A DNA stretch of 64,000 nt from Vicinamibacterales bacterium (GTDB lineage Bacteria > Acidobacteriota > Vicinamibacteria > Vicinamibacterales > Fen-181). The DNA lies in contig DASXVO010000030.1 of the NCBI GenBank assembly GCA_036504215.1, forward strand, positions 1 to 64,000, written 5' to 3'. Shown in pieces: positions 22,256 to 35,692 of this stretch. A program made the translations under genes and the position numbers. How positions within the stretch are numbered: position 1 is the first letter of the stretch; every line of letters begins with the position of its first letter. The notes below the pieces were generated by a model. It did not search any database and was not told the DNA's origin. It worked only from the letters and a program-made list of their open reading frames with translations.

Positions 22256-22317
22256 GGGCAGTCGCCACGGCTGACCCACACCCGGCCACGAGCCGCTTAC
22301 AGCGTGCCACTGTGCTC

Positions 22318-24006
22318 ATGGAACCCTCCGATAGGCGCCGCCGGCTCGCCTGGCTGATCGCCATCCGGGCGGCGATCAGTGCGGTCCTGCTCGGGTCGGG
22401 CGTGCTGATTGAAATCAACGCGCCGGGCGTCCTGCCGCTCACGCCGTTCTACCTGCTGATCGGCCTCACCTTCGGTTTCACGGCGCTCTACGCCTTCGCG
22501 TTGCCGTACGCGGATCACTGGCTCTGGATGGCCGACGCGCAGTTGGTGGGCGATGCCTTCGTCGTCTCGGGATTCATCGCCGTCACGGGCGGGGTGACGA
22601 GCTACTTCTCGCTGCTCTACGTGCTGCCGATCATTGCCGCCAGCACCGTGCAGGGACGGCGCGGCGCCGTGACGATCAGCGTGCTGTCCTCGCTGATCTA
22701 TGTCGGCCTCGTCGCCGCACAGTACCATGGCGGGTTCAACGCGATGTCCGCGTGGTTTCCGCAGCCGCCCGAGCTGCCGCCGACGCGTGTCGCCGAGTAC
22801 ACGGTGGCCATCAACGTCTTCGCCTTCGTGGCGGTCGCGAGTCTGTCCGGCTCGCTGGCCGAGCGGCTCAAACGGGCCGGGGCGCGCCTCGAGCGCGCGT
22901 CCACCGAGATTGCGAACCTCCAGGCGTTCAACCAGGACGTCATCGACAGCCTGATGAGCGGCCTCGTCAGCATCGATGTTGCGGGCCGAATCCTGTCGTT
23001 CAACCACGCGGCCGAGAAGATTACCGGGCAGTCGTACGAGTCGGTCGTCGGCCGCGCTGCCGCCGATGTCCTCCATCTTCCCGACGCTGTGAGGAGCGCG
23101 TTGACGAACGACCTCGACGGGGAGCGGACGCGGCGCGCCGAATTTCCCTATCCGATGCCGACCGGAGGGACGATCGAGATCGGCCTCGTGGTCGCTCACC
23201 TTCTCGCGCCAGGCGGCCGAATGGGCTACCTGCTCACCTTCCAGGACATCACCGACGTGAGGCGGCTGGAGCGAGATGCGCGGGTCAAGCAGCGGCTCGC
23301 GGCGGTTGGCGAGATGGCCGCCGGCATTGCCCACGAGATTCGCAACCCGCTCGCGTCGATGGCCGGATCCATCCAGGTCCTGCGTGAGGAGTTGTCGCTG
23401 AACGAGGACCAGGCACAGTTGATGGACATCGTGCTCCGGGAGTCGAAGCGGCTCAACGAGACGATCCGGAGTTTCCTCGCCTACGCGCGGCCGCAGCGCG
23501 CCGCGGTCGAGCGTCTCGACCTGCGAAAGACCGTGGCCGACACGGCCCTGCTGCTCAGGAACAGCACCGAAGTGTTGGCGTGCCACGCGATCGACGTGGA
23601 CGTGGCGGCCGACCCGGTCTGGTTCGACGCGGACGAAGGGCAGATACGACAGATCGTCTGGAACCTGGCCACCAATGGCCTGCGCGCGATGCCGTCCGGC
23701 GGCCGACTCCGCCTCGCGGTGCTGGCCGCCCTCCCGCCTTCGGCTACCAGTTCGTCGCCCGCCGACCGGTACGGAGCCGCCGTCCTGGAGATCGAGGATG
23801 AGGGGGTCGGCATCCCTCCCGAGGAGCTCGACGGAATCTTCCAGCCGTTTCACGGCACCTTCGGCCGCGGCAGCGGCCTTGGCCTCGCCATCGTCTATCG
23901 CATCGTCACCGACTACAACGGCGAGATCGATGTCACCTCGACCGTGGGGCGTGGGACGAGGTTCAGGGTGGTGCTGGGGGCTCCCGCAGCCGGGCTCGGC
24001 GGATAG
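22318..24006 (+). CDS. pilS: Sensor histidine kinase PilS
   Basis: 562 residues from the ATG at 22318 (a GTG two codons earlier is possible). About six hydrophobic helices occupy residues 15-190, followed by a PAS domain (FNQDVIDSLMSGLVSIDVAGRILSFNHAAEKITG). The HisKA domain has GEMAAGIAHEIRNPLASMAGSIQVL, with the phospho-accepting His at about residue 339. The HATPase_c domain has NLATNGLRAMP, EIEDEGVGIP and GSGLGLAIVYRIV. In other species PilS senses membrane pilin and controls PilR phosphorylation. Its place directly before pilR supports that role. Confidence 0.93.
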   Translation: MEPSDRRRRLAWLIAIRAAISAVLLGSGVLIEINAPGVLPLTPFYLLIGLTFGFTALYAFALPYADHWLWMADAQLVGDAFVVSGFIAVTGGVTSYFSLLYVLPIIAASTVQGRRGAVTISVLSSLIYVGLVAAQYHGGFNAMSAWFPQPPELPPTRVAEYTVAINVFAFVAVASLSGSLAERLKRAGARLERASTEIANLQAFNQDVIDSLMSGLVSIDVAGRILSFNHAAEKITGQSYESVVGRAAADVLHLPDAVRSALTNDLDGERTRRAEFPYPMPTGGTIEIGLVVAHLLAPGGRMGYLLTFQDITDVRRLERDARVKQRLAAVGEMAAGIAHEIRNPLASMAGSIQVLREELSLNEDQAQLMDIVLRESKRLNETIRSFLAYARPQRAAVERLDLRKTVADTALLLRNSTEVLACHAIDVDVAADPVWFDADEGQIRQIVWNLATNGLRAMPSGGRLRLAVLAALPPSATSSSPADRYGAAVLEIEDEGVGIPPEELDGIFQPFHGTFGRGSGLGLAIVYRIVTDYNGEIDVTSTVGRGTRFRVVLGAPAAGLGG

Positions 24007-24253: not shown

Positions 24254-25654
<1,401 letters not shown>

Positions 25655-25723
25655 GCCGGGCGGGTTCTGGGCTCGGGTTCGGCTCCTCCACGACCGCCGC
25701 AATTGAGATCGTAACTGGCGATC

Positions 25724-25735
25724 GACACAGTTGTC
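25724..25735. promoter_or_regulatory. PilR-like upstream activating site, pilA copy 1
   Basis: GACACAGTTGTC is an inverted repeat of GACA/TGTC half-sites. Its centre lies about 104 bp upstream of the -24 GG. Published PilR sites in Pseudomonas contain (C/G)TGTC repeats; assignment to PilR here is inference. Confidence 0.5.
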
Positions 25736-25744
25736 ATCGGTTGC

Positions 25745-25760
25745 CCAGGCGGACAGGCGG
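25745..25760. repeat. Dispersed 16-bp repeat (second copy)
   Basis: CCAGGCGGACAGGCGG, identical to the copy at 12751-12766, lies between the activator site and the pilA promoter. Confidence 0.45.
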
Positions 25761-25807
25761 CTGCTCTCGGGCGATTGTCGCAAGTACCTGCCGAACGAGG
25801 CATTGAC

Positions 25808-25827
25808 GCCCCGAGTGCCCTCGGGGC
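25808..25827. other. Perfect 8-bp hairpin just upstream of the pilA1 promoter
   Basis: GCCCCGAG and CTCGGGGC flank a four-base loop, five bases before the sigma-54 site. There is no T-run after it. It may insulate pilA from pilR read-through or be a protein site. Confidence 0.4.
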
Positions 25828-25832
25828 TCCAG

Positions 25833-25848
25833 TGGCATCAGTCATGCT
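25833..25848 (+). promoter_or_regulatory. Sigma-54 promoter of pilA copy 1
   Basis: TGGCATCAGTCATGCT has GG and GC ten bases apart and TGGCA at -24. The predicted start is near 25859, exactly where the conserved leader block begins. Confidence 0.7.
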
Positions 25849-25859
25849 CTTTGGGGACT

Positions 25860-25933
25860 GGGACACGGAGCAGGCGCTGGCCGGGTTCGCGGCAAAGGCC
25901 AACCGCCCTTACTGGTCGCCGGCAAGGCCCGGC
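25860..25933 (+). promoter_or_regulatory. Conserved structured pilA leader element, copy 1
   Basis: 74 nt begin at the predicted transcript start and match 26777-26850 with a single mismatch; the last 65 nt are identical. It can fold into a three-way junction. P1 pairs 25880-25885 with 25928-25933. P2 pairs 25889-25892 with 25903-25906, with loop CAAAGGCCAA. P3 pairs 25907-25910 with 25924-25927. Only three junction bases stay unpaired. It ends 31 nt before the pilA start codon. It matches no riboswitch class I can recognise. Confidence 0.55.
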
Positions 25934-25964
25934 GGGCCGCCATCAAACGAGCGGGGAGAACACC

Positions 25965-26489
25965 ATGAAGACACGCAGGAACGAAGGCTTCACCCTCATC
26001 GAGCTGCTGATCGTCGTCGCGATCATCGGTATCATCGCAGCCATCGCTGTGCCGGGCCTGATGCGCGCACGCATGTCGGGCAACGAGGCGTCGGCAATCG
26101 GGTCGCTGCGCGCCATCAACAGCGCCCAGTCCACGTTCTCCTCCTCGTGCGCGCAGGGCAACTTCGCGGTCGATCTGGCGACGCTCGTCCTCGGGGCTGG
26201 CGGTTCGGGTGCCGGCTTCATCAGTCCTGACCTGAATGCGAACGGCGTCCTGAAGAGCGGCTACCTGATCACCGTCGGCGCGGGCGGCGCGGCGACGAGC
26301 ACGGCGACGGCGTGCAACGGCACCGCGGGCAACGCGGCCGGCTACGCGGCGTGGGCGGATGCGCAGAGCACCTCGACCGGCACGCGGTACTTCGGCACCA
26401 ACACCACCGGCACGATTTGGCAGGGCACGGCGTCGCTGAGCGGCATCCAGGCGTCGACGGCTCCGTCGGGCGGCGTGCCGATTCAGTAG
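25965..26489 (+). CDS. pilA: Major pilin PilA, copy 1
   Basis: 174 residues. A short positive leader (MKTRRNEG) is cleaved by PilD before Phe, giving mature FTLIELLIVVAIIGIIAAIAVPGL with the conserved Glu5. The C-terminal part is Gly/Ala/Ser/Thr-rich and has exactly two cysteines (SSSCAQ and ATACNG), probably a disulphide. The ribosome binding site is GGGGAGAA. A strong intrinsic terminator follows, so the gene is its own transcript from a sigma-54 promoter. It differs from copy 2 at eight residues. Confidence 0.95.
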   Translation: MKTRRNEGFTLIELLIVVAIIGIIAAIAVPGLMRARMSGNEASAIGSLRAINSAQSTFSSSCAQGNFAVDLATLVLGAGGSGAGFISPDLNANGVLKSGYLITVGAGGAATSTATACNGTAGNAAGYAAWADAQSTSTGTRYFGTNTTGTIWQGTASLSGIQASTAPSGGVPIQ

Positions 26490-26520
26490 ATCCTCGAGCG
26501 GCGGCCGCGAGACAGTAAGG

Positions 26521-26578
26521 AAGGTGACACTCGCCTCTCCGTGCACGGCACGGGAGAAGGTCAGTGTCACCTTTTTTC
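26521..26578 (+). terminator. Intrinsic terminator of pilA copy 1
   Basis: AAGGTGACACT (26521-26531) pairs with AGTGTCACCTT (26563-26573), and the second arm runs into CTTTTTTCTT. A smaller hairpin can form inside the loop. Confidence 0.88.
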
Positions 26579-26637
26579 TTGTGTCGGCACCCCTGGCTGG
26601 CACCAACTGCATCGGTGACGAAGTTTGTCAGTCTCGA

Positions 26638-26654
26638 GTGACATCAATTGTCAC
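26638..26654. promoter_or_regulatory. PilR-like upstream activating site, pilA copy 2
   Basis: GTGACATCAATTGTCAC has perfect 6-bp arms. Its centre lies 103 bp upstream of the -24 GG. An extra TGTCA half-site lies at 26626-26630. The spacing matches that at copy 1. Confidence 0.55.
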
Positions 26655-26709
26655 TCTTCCCCGTGCCCGCCCGCCGCCGTCGTTCGCAACGTCAGCATAA
26701 GTTATTATG

Positions 26710-26722
26710 TGTCAATATCTTA
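26710..26722 (+). promoter_or_regulatory. IHF-like site between activator site and promoter
   Basis: TGTCAATATCTTA fits the IHF core WATCAANNNNTTR at all but one position and lies in the only AT-rich stretch of the spacer. IHF bending between enhancer and sigma-54 promoter is a common arrangement. The equivalent place at pilA copy 1 is GC-rich. Confidence 0.35.
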
Positions 26723-26747
26723 TGGCGTGACCATCTCGCGTTTTGCG

Positions 26748-26764
26748 TTGGCATCAGGGTTGCT
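26748..26764 (+). promoter_or_regulatory. Sigma-54 promoter of pilA copy 2
   Basis: TTGGCATCAGGGTTGCT is a strong match: TTGGCA at -24, TTGCT at -12 and GG-N10-GC spacing. The predicted start is near 26775, two bases before the conserved leader block. Confidence 0.78.
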
Positions 26765-26776
26765 CCTCTGTTGGCC

Positions 26777-26850
26777 GGGACACGAAGCAGGCGCTGGCCG
26801 GGTTCGCGGCAAAGGCCAACCGCCCTTACTGGTCGCCGGCAAGGCCCGGC
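26777..26850 (+). promoter_or_regulatory. Conserved structured pilA leader element, copy 2
   Basis: This is the second copy of the 74-nt block, with the same predicted three-way junction. The 31 nt between the block and the start codon differ from copy 1 at roughly a third of positions, and the promoter side differs as well. The identity of the block therefore stands out from its flanks. Confidence 0.55.
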
Positions 26851-26881
26851 AAGCCGCGATTAATCAGCGAGGAGAGACACC

Positions 26882-27406
26882 ATGAGAACCCGCAGGAACG
26901 AAGGCTTCACACTCATCGAGCTGCTGATCGTCGTCGCGATCATCGGTATCATCGCAGCCATCGCAGTGCCGGGCCTGATGCGCGCGCGCATGTCGGGCAA
27001 CGAGGCGTCGGCGATCGGGTCGCTTCGCGCGATCAACAGCGCGCAGTCCACGTTCTCCTCCTCGTGCGCGCAGGGCAACTACGCCGTCAATCTGTCGACG
27101 CTGGTGCTCGGTGCGGGCGGCTCGGGCGCTGGCTTCATCAGCCCTGACCTGAACACGAACGGCGTGGTCAAGAGCGGCTACCTGATCACCGTCGGCGCGG
27201 GCGGCGCGGCGACGAGCACGGCGACGGCGTGCAACGGCACCGCGGGCAACGCGGCCGGCTACGCGGCGTGGGCGGATGCGCAGAGCAGCTCGACCGGCAC
27301 GCGGTACTTCGGCACCAACACCACCGGCACGATTTGGCAGGGCACGGCGTCGCTGAGCGGGATCCAGGCGTCGACGGCTCCGTCGGGCGGCACGCCGATT
27401 CAGTAG
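26882..27406 (+). CDS. pilA: Major pilin PilA, copy 2
   Basis: 174 residues, about 95% identical to copy 1 (differences include K2R and F to Y near residue 66). It has the same prepilin cleavage site (NEG|FTLIE), N-terminal helix and two cysteines. GAGGAGAG precedes the ATG. By hand count about 26 of the first 288 nucleotides differ from copy 1 but only 4 of the last 237, so the 3' half looks recently homogenised. It has its own promoter and terminator. Confidence 0.95.
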   Translation: MRTRRNEGFTLIELLIVVAIIGIIAAIAVPGLMRARMSGNEASAIGSLRAINSAQSTFSSSCAQGNYAVNLSTLVLGAGGSGAGFISPDLNTNGVVKSGYLITVGAGGAATSTATACNGTAGNAAGYAAWADAQSSSTGTRYFGTNTTGTIWQGTASLSGIQASTAPSGGTPIQ

Positions 27407-27433
27407 GCCCACGGTTCGTTCCCGGGTAATATG

Positions 27434-27472
27434 CAGGACGGCTGCCGACAACCGGCAGCCGTCCTGTTTCGT
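27434..27472 (+). terminator. Intrinsic terminator of pilA copy 2
   Basis: A perfect 14-bp stem (27434-27447 with 27453-27466) has a five-base loop and is followed by TTTCGTTGTT. The YfhO-like gene begins immediately after it. Confidence 0.87.
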
Positions 27473-27486
27473 TGTTCGGCCTCCCG

Positions 27487-29985
27487 ATGCCGATGGCCTC
27501 ACCACCCGTCCGCACGCCCCCCCCCGCGGTGTCGGACCGGTCCGCGCCGGCGGCGCCAGCGCACCGCCTGCGGGGCTGGTGGGCGATGCTCGCAGTGGCC
27601 GTCGCCACGGTGCCCGTGGCGGGCGTCTTCTCCCTGCACCGCGTCTTTCACGTCCGCGACCTCTGCCTCTTCTTCTGGGGTCGCCACATCTGGTTCCGGC
27701 GCAGTCTGCTGTCTGGCGAATGGCCCCTGTGGGATCCCTACATGGGGGCAGGGCAGTCGGCGGTTGCAGACGCGCTCAACCAGATGTTCCTCCTGCCCGT
27801 GCTGGCTCTGCGGCTGATCGGCAGCGAAATCGTGGGCTTCAATCTGTGGGTGGCGCTGCCGTTTCCGATCGCGGCGCTTGGAGCGTACGTCTTCCTCCGT
27901 TGGCGGTTCTCGGCGCAGGCTTCGGCGCTTGGCGCCATCGCGTTCTCGGTGTGCGGTCCGGTGATCTCGACGGGGAATTTTCCGAACCTGTCGTGGTCCG
28001 TCGCGGCGATGCCGTGGGTCTTCTGGGCAGCGGACCGTGTGCTGGCGGGCGGCGGGATGCGGGCCGTCGCGGGGCTGGCCGTCACCCTGGCCTTCCAGGC
28101 GCTGGCTGGCGAGCCGGTATCACTGACGGCCACGGGCGGCCTGGTCCTGTTGTACGCGCTCTGGGTGGGATCGGGCGAAGGTGATCGATCCATGGCCGTG
28201 CGGTTCCGCGGTCTGGCTGGTGTGACGGCGGGGCTGGCGCTCGGACTGATGGGCGCGGCGATCCAGTTGCTGCCGCTGTCGGCCGCCGTCCGTGACTCGT
28301 GGCGGGTCTACGGGGCCGGCAAGGACTTCTGGGCGCTGCATCCGCTCGCGCTGGCGGAAATGGTCTCGCCGCACCTGTTCGGCGACTACTTCACGAGCTC
28401 GTACTTCGCGGTGCTGCCCTGGATGCCGCCGCTCAACAGTGGTCGCGATCCGTTCTTCTTCTCGATCTACTTCGGCACGGCGTTGATCGCGCTCGCGGTG
28501 TTCGGGGCCGTGGCCGGCTGGCGCCGCTCCTGGTCCGGCTTCTGGGTGACGATGAGCGTCGTCGCGGTGTTTGCGGCGTTCGGGCCCCACACGCCGTTCT
28601 ACCCGTTCGTGCGCGAGCACGTGCCCGTGGTCGCGTCGTTCCGCTTCCCGGTCAAGTATCTCCTCGTCGTGGCGCTCGCGCTGGCGGCGCTTGCCGCGTC
28701 GGGCTGGGACGCCCTGCGCGGGGAGGAGCGCCGGACGGCGGCCCCGCGCCGCTACCGATGTGCGCAGATCAGCGGTGTTGTGGTTGCGGTGATCCTGGCC
28801 GGCGCGGCGTACGTCCTCTCGGGTGCGTGCGTGTACTTCCCGGAGGCCGCCGGTCGTGCCTTCCTGCGCCTGGCCGCGTACGTCGGTGTGTTCGACGCCG
28901 TCGATGGCGCGGACTACCTGCTCAAGACACTGCCGGCAGCCGCGAGTCGTGTGATGCTGTTCTCGCTCGGCGCGGCGCTCTTCCTCGGCGTCGCGTCCAC
29001 CCGTCGCCGCGAAGCCCGCTTCTCGCAGGTGACGCTGTTCGCCCTCATCGGCGTCGAGTTGGTCGCCGCTGCGTGGGGCATCAACCCGACGTTCGACGCC
29101 GTCCACTATCGCCAGCCCGATTGGATCACCGCGACGCGCGGGAACGAGCAGAGCCGCTTCTACTTCGGCGGCAAGGTGGACGGCACCGTGGACATGCGGG
29201 ATCTGGATGCACCCCAGAACTTCGTTCGGCCGTTCGACATGTCGCCGCTCGACGGCCGCGGCGCGCTGTCGGTGCAGACGGTCTTCGTGCCCGCGGCCTG
29301 GCGTGCGCGCGAGATGCTGTCCTACGACCTCGCCGTTCTCTGGCCGCGCCCGTTCGAGTTGGTGGTGTCCCGTTTCCGTCAATCGGACCGCGCGACCCGA
29401 GACCGGTTTCTGTGGCGGTCGGGCGTGCGGTACCGCATCGTGCCCACGCGGATTGGCGGTAGCCGGCCAGCGGTGCCAATCAAGTACTTCAACGACCTGA
29501 GGCTGTTCGACTGGGGGCCCGTGTTCCCTCGCGTCAGCGTCGTACCGACGGCGACCGTCGTGCCGGACGTGCGCGAGCAGGTCGCGCAGTTGTTCAGCCC
29601 GACGTTCGATCCCGCGCACACCGTGGCCCTCACCACGCCCGCACAGGAGCTCTGGGGACGGCCGGGGCCGCCCGTCGAGGCCTCCGCTCGCGTCGTTGGC
29701 GAGTCAGCCAACGAAGTCACGGTCGAAGCTGGTGTGCCTGCGGCTGGCGGGTATCTGCTGATGCTCGATTCGTTCTCGCCCGGCTGGCGGGTCACGGTGG
29801 ATGGTGCATCCGGGACGCTCTACCGCGCGAACGCGCTCTTCCGCTCGGTCCGCCTCGCGCCCGGGCGGCACATCGTCCACTTCCGGTATCTGCCGGAATC
29901 GTTCGTCGTCGGGGCCGCGGTGTCGGCGGTCGCGCTGATCGTTGTGGTTCTGCTGCTACGCGTCGGTCGCCGACGCGTGATGTGA
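27487..29985 (+). CDS. YfhO-family multispanning membrane protein
   Basis: 832 residues from the ATG at 27487; another ATG lies two codons on, and neither has a clear ribosome binding site. About 12 membrane helices fill residues 30-530. The start has WPLWDPYMGAGQS, and the C-terminal soluble domain ends YLLMLDSFSPGWRVTVDG...YRANALFRSVRLAPGRHIVHFRYLP, the hallmark of YfhO proteins. YfhO has been linked to glycosylation of lipoteichoic acid and other surface polymers. Next to pilA and four glycan genes, it may act in glycosylation of a surface polymer or pilin. Confidence 0.82.
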   Translation: MPMASPPVRTPPPAVSDRSAPAAPAHRLRGWWAMLAVAVATVPVAGVFSLHRVFHVRDLCLFFWGRHIWFRRSLLSGEWPLWDPYMGAGQSAVADALNQMFLLPVLALRLIGSEIVGFNLWVALPFPIAALGAYVFLRWRFSAQASALGAIAFSVCGPVISTGNFPNLSWSVAAMPWVFWAADRVLAGGGMRAVAGLAVTLAFQALAGEPVSLTATGGLVLLYALWVGSGEGDRSMAVRFRGLAGVTAGLALGLMGAAIQLLPLSAAVRDSWRVYGAGKDFWALHPLALAEMVSPHLFGDYFTSSYFAVLPWMPPLNSGRDPFFFSIYFGTALIALAVFGAVAGWRRSWSGFWVTMSVVAVFAAFGPHTPFYPFVREHVPVVASFRFPVKYLLVVALALAALAASGWDALRGEERRTAAPRRYRCAQISGVVVAVILAGAAYVLSGACVYFPEAAGRAFLRLAAYVGVFDAVDGADYLLKTLPAAASRVMLFSLGAALFLGVASTRRREARFSQVTLFALIGVELVAAAWGINPTFDAVHYRQPDWITATRGNEQSRFYFGGKVDGTVDMRDLDAPQNFVRPFDMSPLDGRGALSVQTVFVPAAWRAREMLSYDLAVLWPRPFELVVSRFRQSDRATRDRFLWRSGVRYRIVPTRIGGSRPAVPIKYFNDLRLFDWGPVFPRVSVVPTATVVPDVREQVAQLFSPTFDPAHTVALTTPAQELWGRPGPPVEASARVVGESANEVTVEAGVPAAGGYLLMLDSFSPGWRVTVDGASGTLYRANALFRSVRLAPGRHIVHFRYLPESFVVGAAVSAVALIVVVLLLRVGRRRVM

Positions 29986-35155: not shown

Positions 35156-35692
35156 ATGATGAACAGCACCCGACGCCCCGACGGCTTCACGCTGATCGAA
35201 TTGATGATGGTGGTGTCGATCATCGCGTTGCTGGCCGCTATCGCCTTTCCCAAGCTGGGGCAGGCGCGGCTGGCCGGCAATGAGTCCTCGACCATCGGGT
35301 CGATCCGCACCATCAACAGCGGCCAGCAAGTGTTCTGGAGTAGCTGCGGGTACGGGATGTACTCGCCCTCGCTCGAGAATCTCGCCGCACCGGTGGCAGG
35401 CGCGCCAGGATATGTGAGCATGGACCTCGGCGGTCCGCCGCCGGTGGTGAAGAGCGGGTACGAACTCGAAATGTCGAGCGATTTCCCGCCCGGGACGGCG
35501 TTCAGCTGCAACGGGGGCGGCGTCGTGATCAGCTATCACGTAACCGCCGACCCGCGCCCGGGCCAGGGCGTTCGGTTCTTCGCGTCGAATACGACAGGTG
35601 CGATCTATCAGTCCACCGAGACGATGTACAGCGTGACGCCCGACGCGGCGCCGCCGGCCGCGCCGGCGATCCCGCTGTCTTCGGCGCGTTGA
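35156..35692 (+). CDS. Type IV pilin (third, divergent copy)
   Basis: 178 residues from the first of two adjacent ATG codons. The leader MMNSTRRPDG is cut before FTLIELMMVVSIIALLAAIAFPKL, with Glu5 present. The layout matches the pilA products: SIRTINSGQQVFWSSCGYG, a two-cysteine pattern (SSC ... FSCNGGG) and the C-terminal ASNTTGAIYQS, ending in a Pro/Ala-rich tail. It is clearly homologous but diverged, so it is perhaps an alternative or minor pilin. It has its own candidate sigma-54 promoter and PilR-like sites and is isolated from the pilA pair by the glycan module. Confidence 0.88.
   Translation: MMNSTRRPDGFTLIELMMVVSIIALLAAIAFPKLGQARLAGNESSTIGSIRTINSGQQVFWSSCGYGMYSPSLENLAAPVAGAPGYVSMDLGGPPPVVKSGYELEMSSDFPPGTAFSCNGGGVVISYHVTADPRPGQGVRFFASNTTGAIYQSTETMYSVTPDAAPPAAPAIPLSSAR

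Follow-up and report, generated by a model that had tools for sequence, protein, structure and literature searches.

The locus analysed here raises the question of why two tandem pilin genes should each be preceded by almost the same 74 nucleotides, and whether that sequence is kept for what it does as RNA. In the window (the whole 64,000-nucleotide stretch of Vicinamibacterales DNA under study), the blocks at 25860-25933 and 26777-26850 have a single mismatch among their 74 positions (at offset 9) and match at 65 of 65 on the 3′ side, and the 31 nt between block and ATG carry 14 mismatches between the pilA1 and pilA2 copies. The first-pass annotation had noted both the near-identity and the divergence ahead of the start codons, and direct comparison bears it out on each; it had also described the promoter side as diverged, which holds for the DNA 5′ of both promoters but not for the σ54 boxes themselves, which are kept. 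The locus contains the following features.

22312-24006, + strand: PilS-like sensor kinase (Pfam 6TM_PilS E 1.4e-11, HisKA, HATPase_c)
24254-25654, + strand: PilR-like σ54-activating response regulator (Response_reg, Sigma54_activat E 1.2e-70, HTH_8)
25833-25848, + strand: σ54 box of pilA1, TGGCATCAGTCATGCT, with ATGC where TTGC is expected
25860-25933, + strand: leader block copy 1 (pilA1), from copy comparison; covariance model R1 gives 90.4 bits at 25856-25963, a training sequence of R1
25965-26489, + strand: pilA1, type IV pilin (N_methyl E 2.5e-9; TIGR02532 above cut-off)
26512-26582, + strand: strong hairpin and T run in the pilA1-pilA2 interval, probably a terminator (fold z -6.66, 0/200 shuffles as good)
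26749-26764, + strand: σ54 box of pilA2, TGGCATCAGGGTTGCT
26777-26850, + strand: leader block copy 2 (pilA2), from copy comparison and orthologue alignment; R1 gives 98.6 bits at 26773-26880, a training sequence of R1
26882-27406, + strand: pilA2, type IV pilin (N_methyl E 2.6e-9)
27433-27467, + strand: terminator-like hairpin 3′ of pilA2 (terminator scan; fold z -6.66)

The σ54 boxes were identified by a weighted match to the GG-N10-GC spacing of the -24/-12 elements; those upstream of pilA score 26 (copy 1) and 28 (copy 2) out of a maximum of 30, and they place the predicted +1 at about 25859 and 26775, that is, 1-2 nt 5′ of each block, in agreement with the earlier placement of both mRNA starts at the block. 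The PilS-like and PilR-like genes lie directly upstream of pilA1; a PilR homologue also stands upstream of pilA in the relatives G003, G004, and G006, and none was found within 1.9 kb 5′ of the pilA of G005. From the box and the linked genes, pilA is predicted to be driven by σ54/PilSR. The locus resembles known PilSR/σ54 pilA promoters in its GG-N10-GC box, its PilS/PilR-like neighbours, and the downstream pilA, and σ54 boxes ahead of pilA recur in the order. It differs in that pilA is present twice in tandem, with a separate box, leader, and terminator-like hairpin for each copy. Because strong hairpins stand between the genes and after pilA2, pilA1 and pilA2 are probably transcribed as two separate mRNAs; the consensus terminator scan, with its loop limit of 8, omits the hairpin at 26512-26582. 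The pilA1 copy combines the ATGC-type box with a degraded 5′ arm of helix H1, described below (25833-25889), so that it may be the weaker or a differently controlled copy. A third pilin-like open reading frame in the window (35159-35689; N_methyl; 45% identity to PilA2 over residues 3-170) has a weaker σ54-like box, CGGCGCCAGTTTTGCT (score 25), and a leader of 47 nt. DNA search of the own genome (90 contigs) found no third copy of the block, the best match beyond the two copies being 25 bases long (E 0.0027).

The first-pass annotation had read constraint from the identity of the two copies. Constraint is supported, by orthologues, but the argument from copy identity is weak. When the pilA1 and pilA2 coding regions are aligned end to end, they contain identical stretches of 118 and 72 nt, each exceeding the 65 of the leader, and their 31 differences are clustered (when the differences were placed at random 20,000 times, a run of at least 118 arose in 0.8% of cases). 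The pattern in the tandem copies resembles a mosaic produced by gene conversion, in which the leader may sit in one tract, and the near-identity of the window copies is probably due to sequence exchange between the tandem genes. Since the coding runs exceed that of the leader, gene conversion or recent duplication can account for the copy identity, which is thus weak and confounded evidence of constraint.

Comparison between species was made by locating orthologues through the PilA protein (present in 58 of 60 genomes at E 1e-25) and anchoring them on the σ54 box; the sequence from the best σ54-like box to the ATG was compared in 60 regions around PilA matches and in 20 later ones (one of them filler). 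A BLASTN search of the 60 relatives with the block found nothing beyond the own genome except partial matches with E 0.001 or worse, and did not detect the leaders of G003, G004, and G005. By the anchored comparison, homologous leaders are recognisable in these three genomes, G004 and G003 belonging to the window's genus and G005 to its family. Over four species (window copy 2, hereafter W2, with G003, G004, and G005), the mean identity of the leader is 0.57, where 150 dinucleotide-shuffled leader sets give 0.336 ± 0.037 (maximum 0.409), and 29 of its columns are invariant, where they give 7.7 ± 2.7 (maximum 14). The fourfold sites of pilA are at chance in all six pairs, with observed/expected values of 44/41.5, 32/32.0, 32/35.3, 33/28.9, 32/31.0, and 24/23.6 (for W2/G003, 32 against 32.0). 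The pre-promoter control (85 bases) has an identity of 0.36 with 6 invariant columns, and the region 3′ of the stop codon, which includes the terminator-like hairpins, 0.43 with 10. Conservation begins close to the predicted +1, and the motifs GGCG, GCGGCA, and GCCGC are invariant in the family's leaders. Because the leader keeps this identity and these 29 columns while fourfold sites are at chance and pre-promoter DNA is at 0.36, it is, judged from four species, under selection; the earlier reading had been staked on homologous leaders being conserved, and the three orthologous ones have remained so.

The distribution of the leader was determined with covariance model R1, built from five leaders and run with an E cut-off of 0.05 on 162 genomes of the order, with Infernal's stricter filters and 24 candidates scored per genome, settings under which weak true matches may be lost. 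Strong matches occur in 4 of the 162 genomes, at pilA leaders, and are the five model sequences themselves (75-99 bits). Six weak matches (26-33 bits) in six other genomes were taken as chance because their loci, scanned on both strands, have no pilin motif. R1 has no match in G001, G002, and G006, three of the seven genomes analysed from the family; the two σ54 pilA genes of G006 are preceded by leaders unlike this one, and for the pilin found in G001 the predicted leader is 27 nt long. Within these 162 genomes and this search, the leader is, as far as the matches show, restricted to part of one family.

Two sets of helices compete in the leader: those of the five-leader alignment consensus, namely, H1 (GGCCAGC/GCUGGCC, at the 5′ end), H2 (GCGGC/GCCGC), and H3 (GCCGG/CCGGC), and the helix P1 of the first-pass annotation, which excludes H1 and H3. 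In the window they are placed as follows.

25880-25933, + strand: P1 copy 1, GCCGGG 25880-25885 with CCCGGC 25928-25933
26797-26850, + strand: P1 copy 2, GCCGGG 26797-26802 with CCCGGC 26845-26850 (probability 0 to 0.91, depending on start and end)
26773-26799, + strand: H1 copy 2, at the predicted 5′ end of the transcript, GGCCGGG 26773-26779 with GCTGGCC 26793-26799 (6/7 pairs)
25889-25893, + strand: H2 5′ arm GCGGC, copy 1 (3′ arm GCCGC 25936-25940), from the alignment consensus; predicted probability about 0
26806-26810, + strand: H2 5′ arm GCGGC, copy 2 (3′ arm GCCGC 26853-26857), invariant in 5/5 rows; probability 0 to 0.98
25918-25933, + strand: H3 GCCGG/CCGGC, copy 1 (excludes P1), from the alignment; probability at most 0.01 in longer context
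26835-26850, + strand: H3 GCCGG/CCGGC, copy 2, from the alignment consensus and pair probabilities

The consensus fold has an energy of -17.2 against -10.15 ± 2.51 for column shuffles, 4/500 of which are as good (alignment A1, columns 13-104); 1/300 are as good when window copy 1 (W1) is left out, and 30/300, a weaker result, when W2 is. H1, H2, and H3 together are paired in 88.8% of 80 cells over the five leaders. The annotation had proposed a covariance-model search for compensatory changes in P1-P3: the search does recover leaders at pilA, those of the model's own four genomes, but covariation in the own family is not significant (score reached by 121/500 shuffles; two pairs changed on both sides), since there are only five sequences and H2 never varies. 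P1 is paired in 75% of 24 cells of the alignment and its score is reached by 250/500 shuffles, a test that is handicapped because the MAFFT register shifts G003 by one column; its 3′ arm is absent in G004, and G005 has a partly mismatched helix. H1 has 7 bp in G003 and G004 and is degraded in copy 1 and G005; its local fold compared with shuffles gives z -2.88 in G004, z -2.19 in G003, and z -0.19 in copy 2, where it requires a start at or before 26773 and has a probability of 0 to 0.83 depending on start and end.

Folded individually, the leaders do not settle on one structure. In copy 1, P1 has a mean pair probability of 0.95-0.99 over four starts and two ends, and the H1/H2/H3 fold is not predicted from any start tried. 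In copy 2, the fold depends on the assumed start within a few bases: from 26773 to 26863, H1 (0.83) and H2 (0.98) are predicted; from 26777 to 26863, P1 (0.91). Neither H1/H2 nor P1 is predicted in the RNA that runs from 26770 to the ATG. G003 prefers a P1-type helix, GGCCGG/CCGGCC (probability 0.99), G004 prefers H1 (0.99-1.0), and G005 forms a partial structure of H2 (0.40) and H3 (0.72-0.74). A three-way junction with P1 GCCGGG/CCCGGC had been suggested; P1 is strong in copy 1 but uncertain in copy 2, and none of the predicted folds shows the junction; in them, P1 closes an unbranched rod. The 74-mers of the window fold slightly worse than their dinucleotide shuffles (z +1.21 and +1.32), so they are foldable, not beyond chance. 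On these models, RNA structure in the leader is moderately supported and pairing within it is likely.

The arrangement of σ54 box, leader, and pilA recurs across the order. In 75 non-redundant σ54-box pilin leaders, most of them from the order (box score at least 26, leader 45-140 nt, protein at least 100 aa), the first 40 nt have more structure than their shuffles (mean z -0.79, se 0.18; 19 below -1.5, 1 above +1.5), and the last 40 nt have no excess structure (mean z +0.20, se 0.11); the pre-promoter control gives a mean z of 0.01 (se 0.13, n=74; 9 below -1.5, 4 above +1.5). In the sister family f2, a 5′ hairpin is common to eight leaders (-17.1 against -1.28 ± 1.57, 0/500 shuffles as good, a test biased because the eight rows were chosen by eye for the hairpin). 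The corresponding covariance model, R2, has matches in 74/162 genomes at E 0.05; among 30 loci inspected, 14 have a pilin motif 3′ on the match strand and 16 have none on either strand. The 14 pilin loci are the 8 model members plus G104, G102, G099, G134, and G132 (E 1e-12 to 9e-5) and G108 (E 0.003), the last with 24.1 bits only, inside the range of chance matches. Over these 14 species, the hairpin is paired in 92.9% of 140 cells and its covariation score is 0.242 against 0.128 ± 0.023 (0/500), by a shuffle that related sequences can exceed without structure; slid-helix controls score at most 0.087, and the three pairs changed on both sides are a number reached by 67/500 shuffles. The hairpin is absent from the f2 leaders of G007, G056, and G110, and the consensus fold of the f4 leaders fails the column-shuffle control (238/500). 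Like the window leader, the f2 hairpin is 5′-proximal, downstream of a σ54 box and before pilA in the same order; it differs in sequence, in its simpler fold, and in its covariation. A search of the window's genome with R2 gives no match at E 0.05, and neither R1 nor R2 matches the pilA leaders of the other's family at that threshold. By eye, the f15 leaders L116 and L212 can form switch-like stems, GTCGGCC/GGCCGAC or, exclusively, GGCCGCT/AGCGGCC, and in L094, L227, and L234 of f9 the sequence GCCGA(A)...(T)TCGGC, just 5′ of the pilA ribosome site, may form a hairpin.

The reading that we favour, tentatively and at somewhat less than an even chance, is that the block is a structured 5′ leader of a σ54/PilSR-driven pilA that stabilises the mRNA or tunes its translation; among these roles, mRNA stability is the preferred reading. 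We infer that the constraint acts at the RNA level, and the leader is probably a lineage-specific structured leader rather than a known riboswitch. Transcription would start at the first bases of the block, as the σ54 box suggests, and pairing would take up much of the first 75 nt of the leader RNA, in one of two mutually exclusive forms: an H1 hairpin at the very 5′ end with H2 enclosing H3, or a longer rod that P1 closes; the ribosome-binding region would follow this paired leader. Because the paired 5′ sequence would hinder decay from the 5′ end and the ribosome site would stay usable, the abundant pilin mRNA would be long-lived and well translated. The ompA mRNA of Escherichia coli is stabilised by a stem-loop in its 5′ UTR. 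According to passages of PMC7509114, 5′ UTR stem-loops stabilise several bacterial mRNAs, those of recA in Acinetobacter and vacA in Helicobacter among them. The window leader is like these stabilisers in having a structured 5′ UTR, a gene that is likely highly expressed, and pairing enriched in the first 40 nt; it differs in its conserved primary sequence and inner helices, and its folds are predicted ones. If this reading is right, the major pilin would be controlled after transcription as well as by PilSR/σ54, in a group that has been little studied, and the leader is small enough for reporter testing. The pilA leaders of the order, one family of which has a covarying hairpin, also form a natural series on the replacement of leader RNAs in evolution.

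A doubtful but serious alternative is that a trans-acting protein or small RNA binds the leader and thereby represses or activates translation of pilA, perhaps in feedback from the pilin level. The motifs kept besides the pairing (GGCG, GCGGCA, GCCGC) exceed what a plain stem-loop needs, and the lack of cross-matches between the models of the two families at E 0.05 is as would be seen with co-evolving partners; on the other side, the leader matches no described RNA family.

It is rather improbable that the block acts as DNA, as a regulator site or through an effect on promoter escape, with the helices being halves of an inverted-repeat operator. The invariance of H2, the near invariance of H3, and the start of conservation near the predicted +1 would fit such an element, and with so little variation in the two helices, constraints on RNA and on DNA look alike within the window's family. 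The consensus RNA energy, however, is better than that of nearly all column shuffles (all but 4/500), and the hairpin of the sister family varies by compensatory and G-U changes.

Bolder, and improbable as it stands, is the proposal that the pilA leaders of Vicinamibacterales are fast-turnover, lineage-specific structured RNA regulators, with families having σ54-started leader RNAs of their own under selection. The window leader, whose two exclusive folds (H1/H2/H3 and P1) are nearly balanced in copy 2, would then be a novel RNA switch, sensing a signal or partner to set the output of the major pilin.

A metabolite or second-messenger riboswitch for c-di-GMP, cGAMP, or a new ligand that controls pilin synthesis, as the first-pass annotation had suggested, is unlikely, and markedly so. 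GEMM riboswitches precede pilA in other bacteria, and the two exclusive folds have nearly equal weight in copy 2. The GEMM-I/GEMM-Ib RNAs (c-di-GMP, cGAMP; Geobacter) are likewise leader RNAs with a link to pilin, but the window leader has no Rfam match and its strong matches are confined to part of one family. Geobacter sulfurreducens has 17 GEMM-I riboswitches, according to a passage of PMC8835794. The comparison with GEMM-I (RF01051) and c-di-GMP-II (RF01786) that had been proposed was run, and neither covariance model has a match in the window at gathering or in the leaders at E up to 5. At gathering thresholds, no Rfam family matches the whole window or the loci of 20 relatives; at E up to 5, the region 25500-27600 yields four weak matches, all to other families and all outside the leaders. 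The terminator scan finds no terminator-like site in the leader. Mean pairing in the five leaders is 0.31-0.57 at the Shine-Dalgarno sequence and 0.19-0.83 at the AUG, and consistent Shine-Dalgarno sequestration was not found among them. Because there is no Rfam match, no leader terminator, no consistent Shine-Dalgarno sequestration, and no strong model match beyond one family (4/162 genomes), a riboswitch is not supported. A leader peptide was also considered and rejected: indels in the family are not divisible by three, and the window copies have no frames of at least 8 codons starting inside the leader; such frames do start in the leaders of G003, G004, and G005, with no mutual agreement by eye. 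Among the matches listed for literature on pilA regulation, structured RNA, and Acidobacteria, titles and abstract openings do not describe this leader, and the main text of a σ54 regulon paper (PMC12316311) has no word beginning with Acidobacteri.

Least probable of all is that the block has no function and owes its identity to recent duplication or gene conversion between the tandem pilA genes, an explanation that suits the longer identical coding runs (118 and 72 nt) and the clustered differences but not the leaders of three other species, which stay alike with fourfold sites at chance identity. Other genomes of the order also carry tandem pilins, at L074, L071, L077, L270, L271, and L106, and in L074, L071, L270, and L271 each of the two pilin copies has a σ54-like box.
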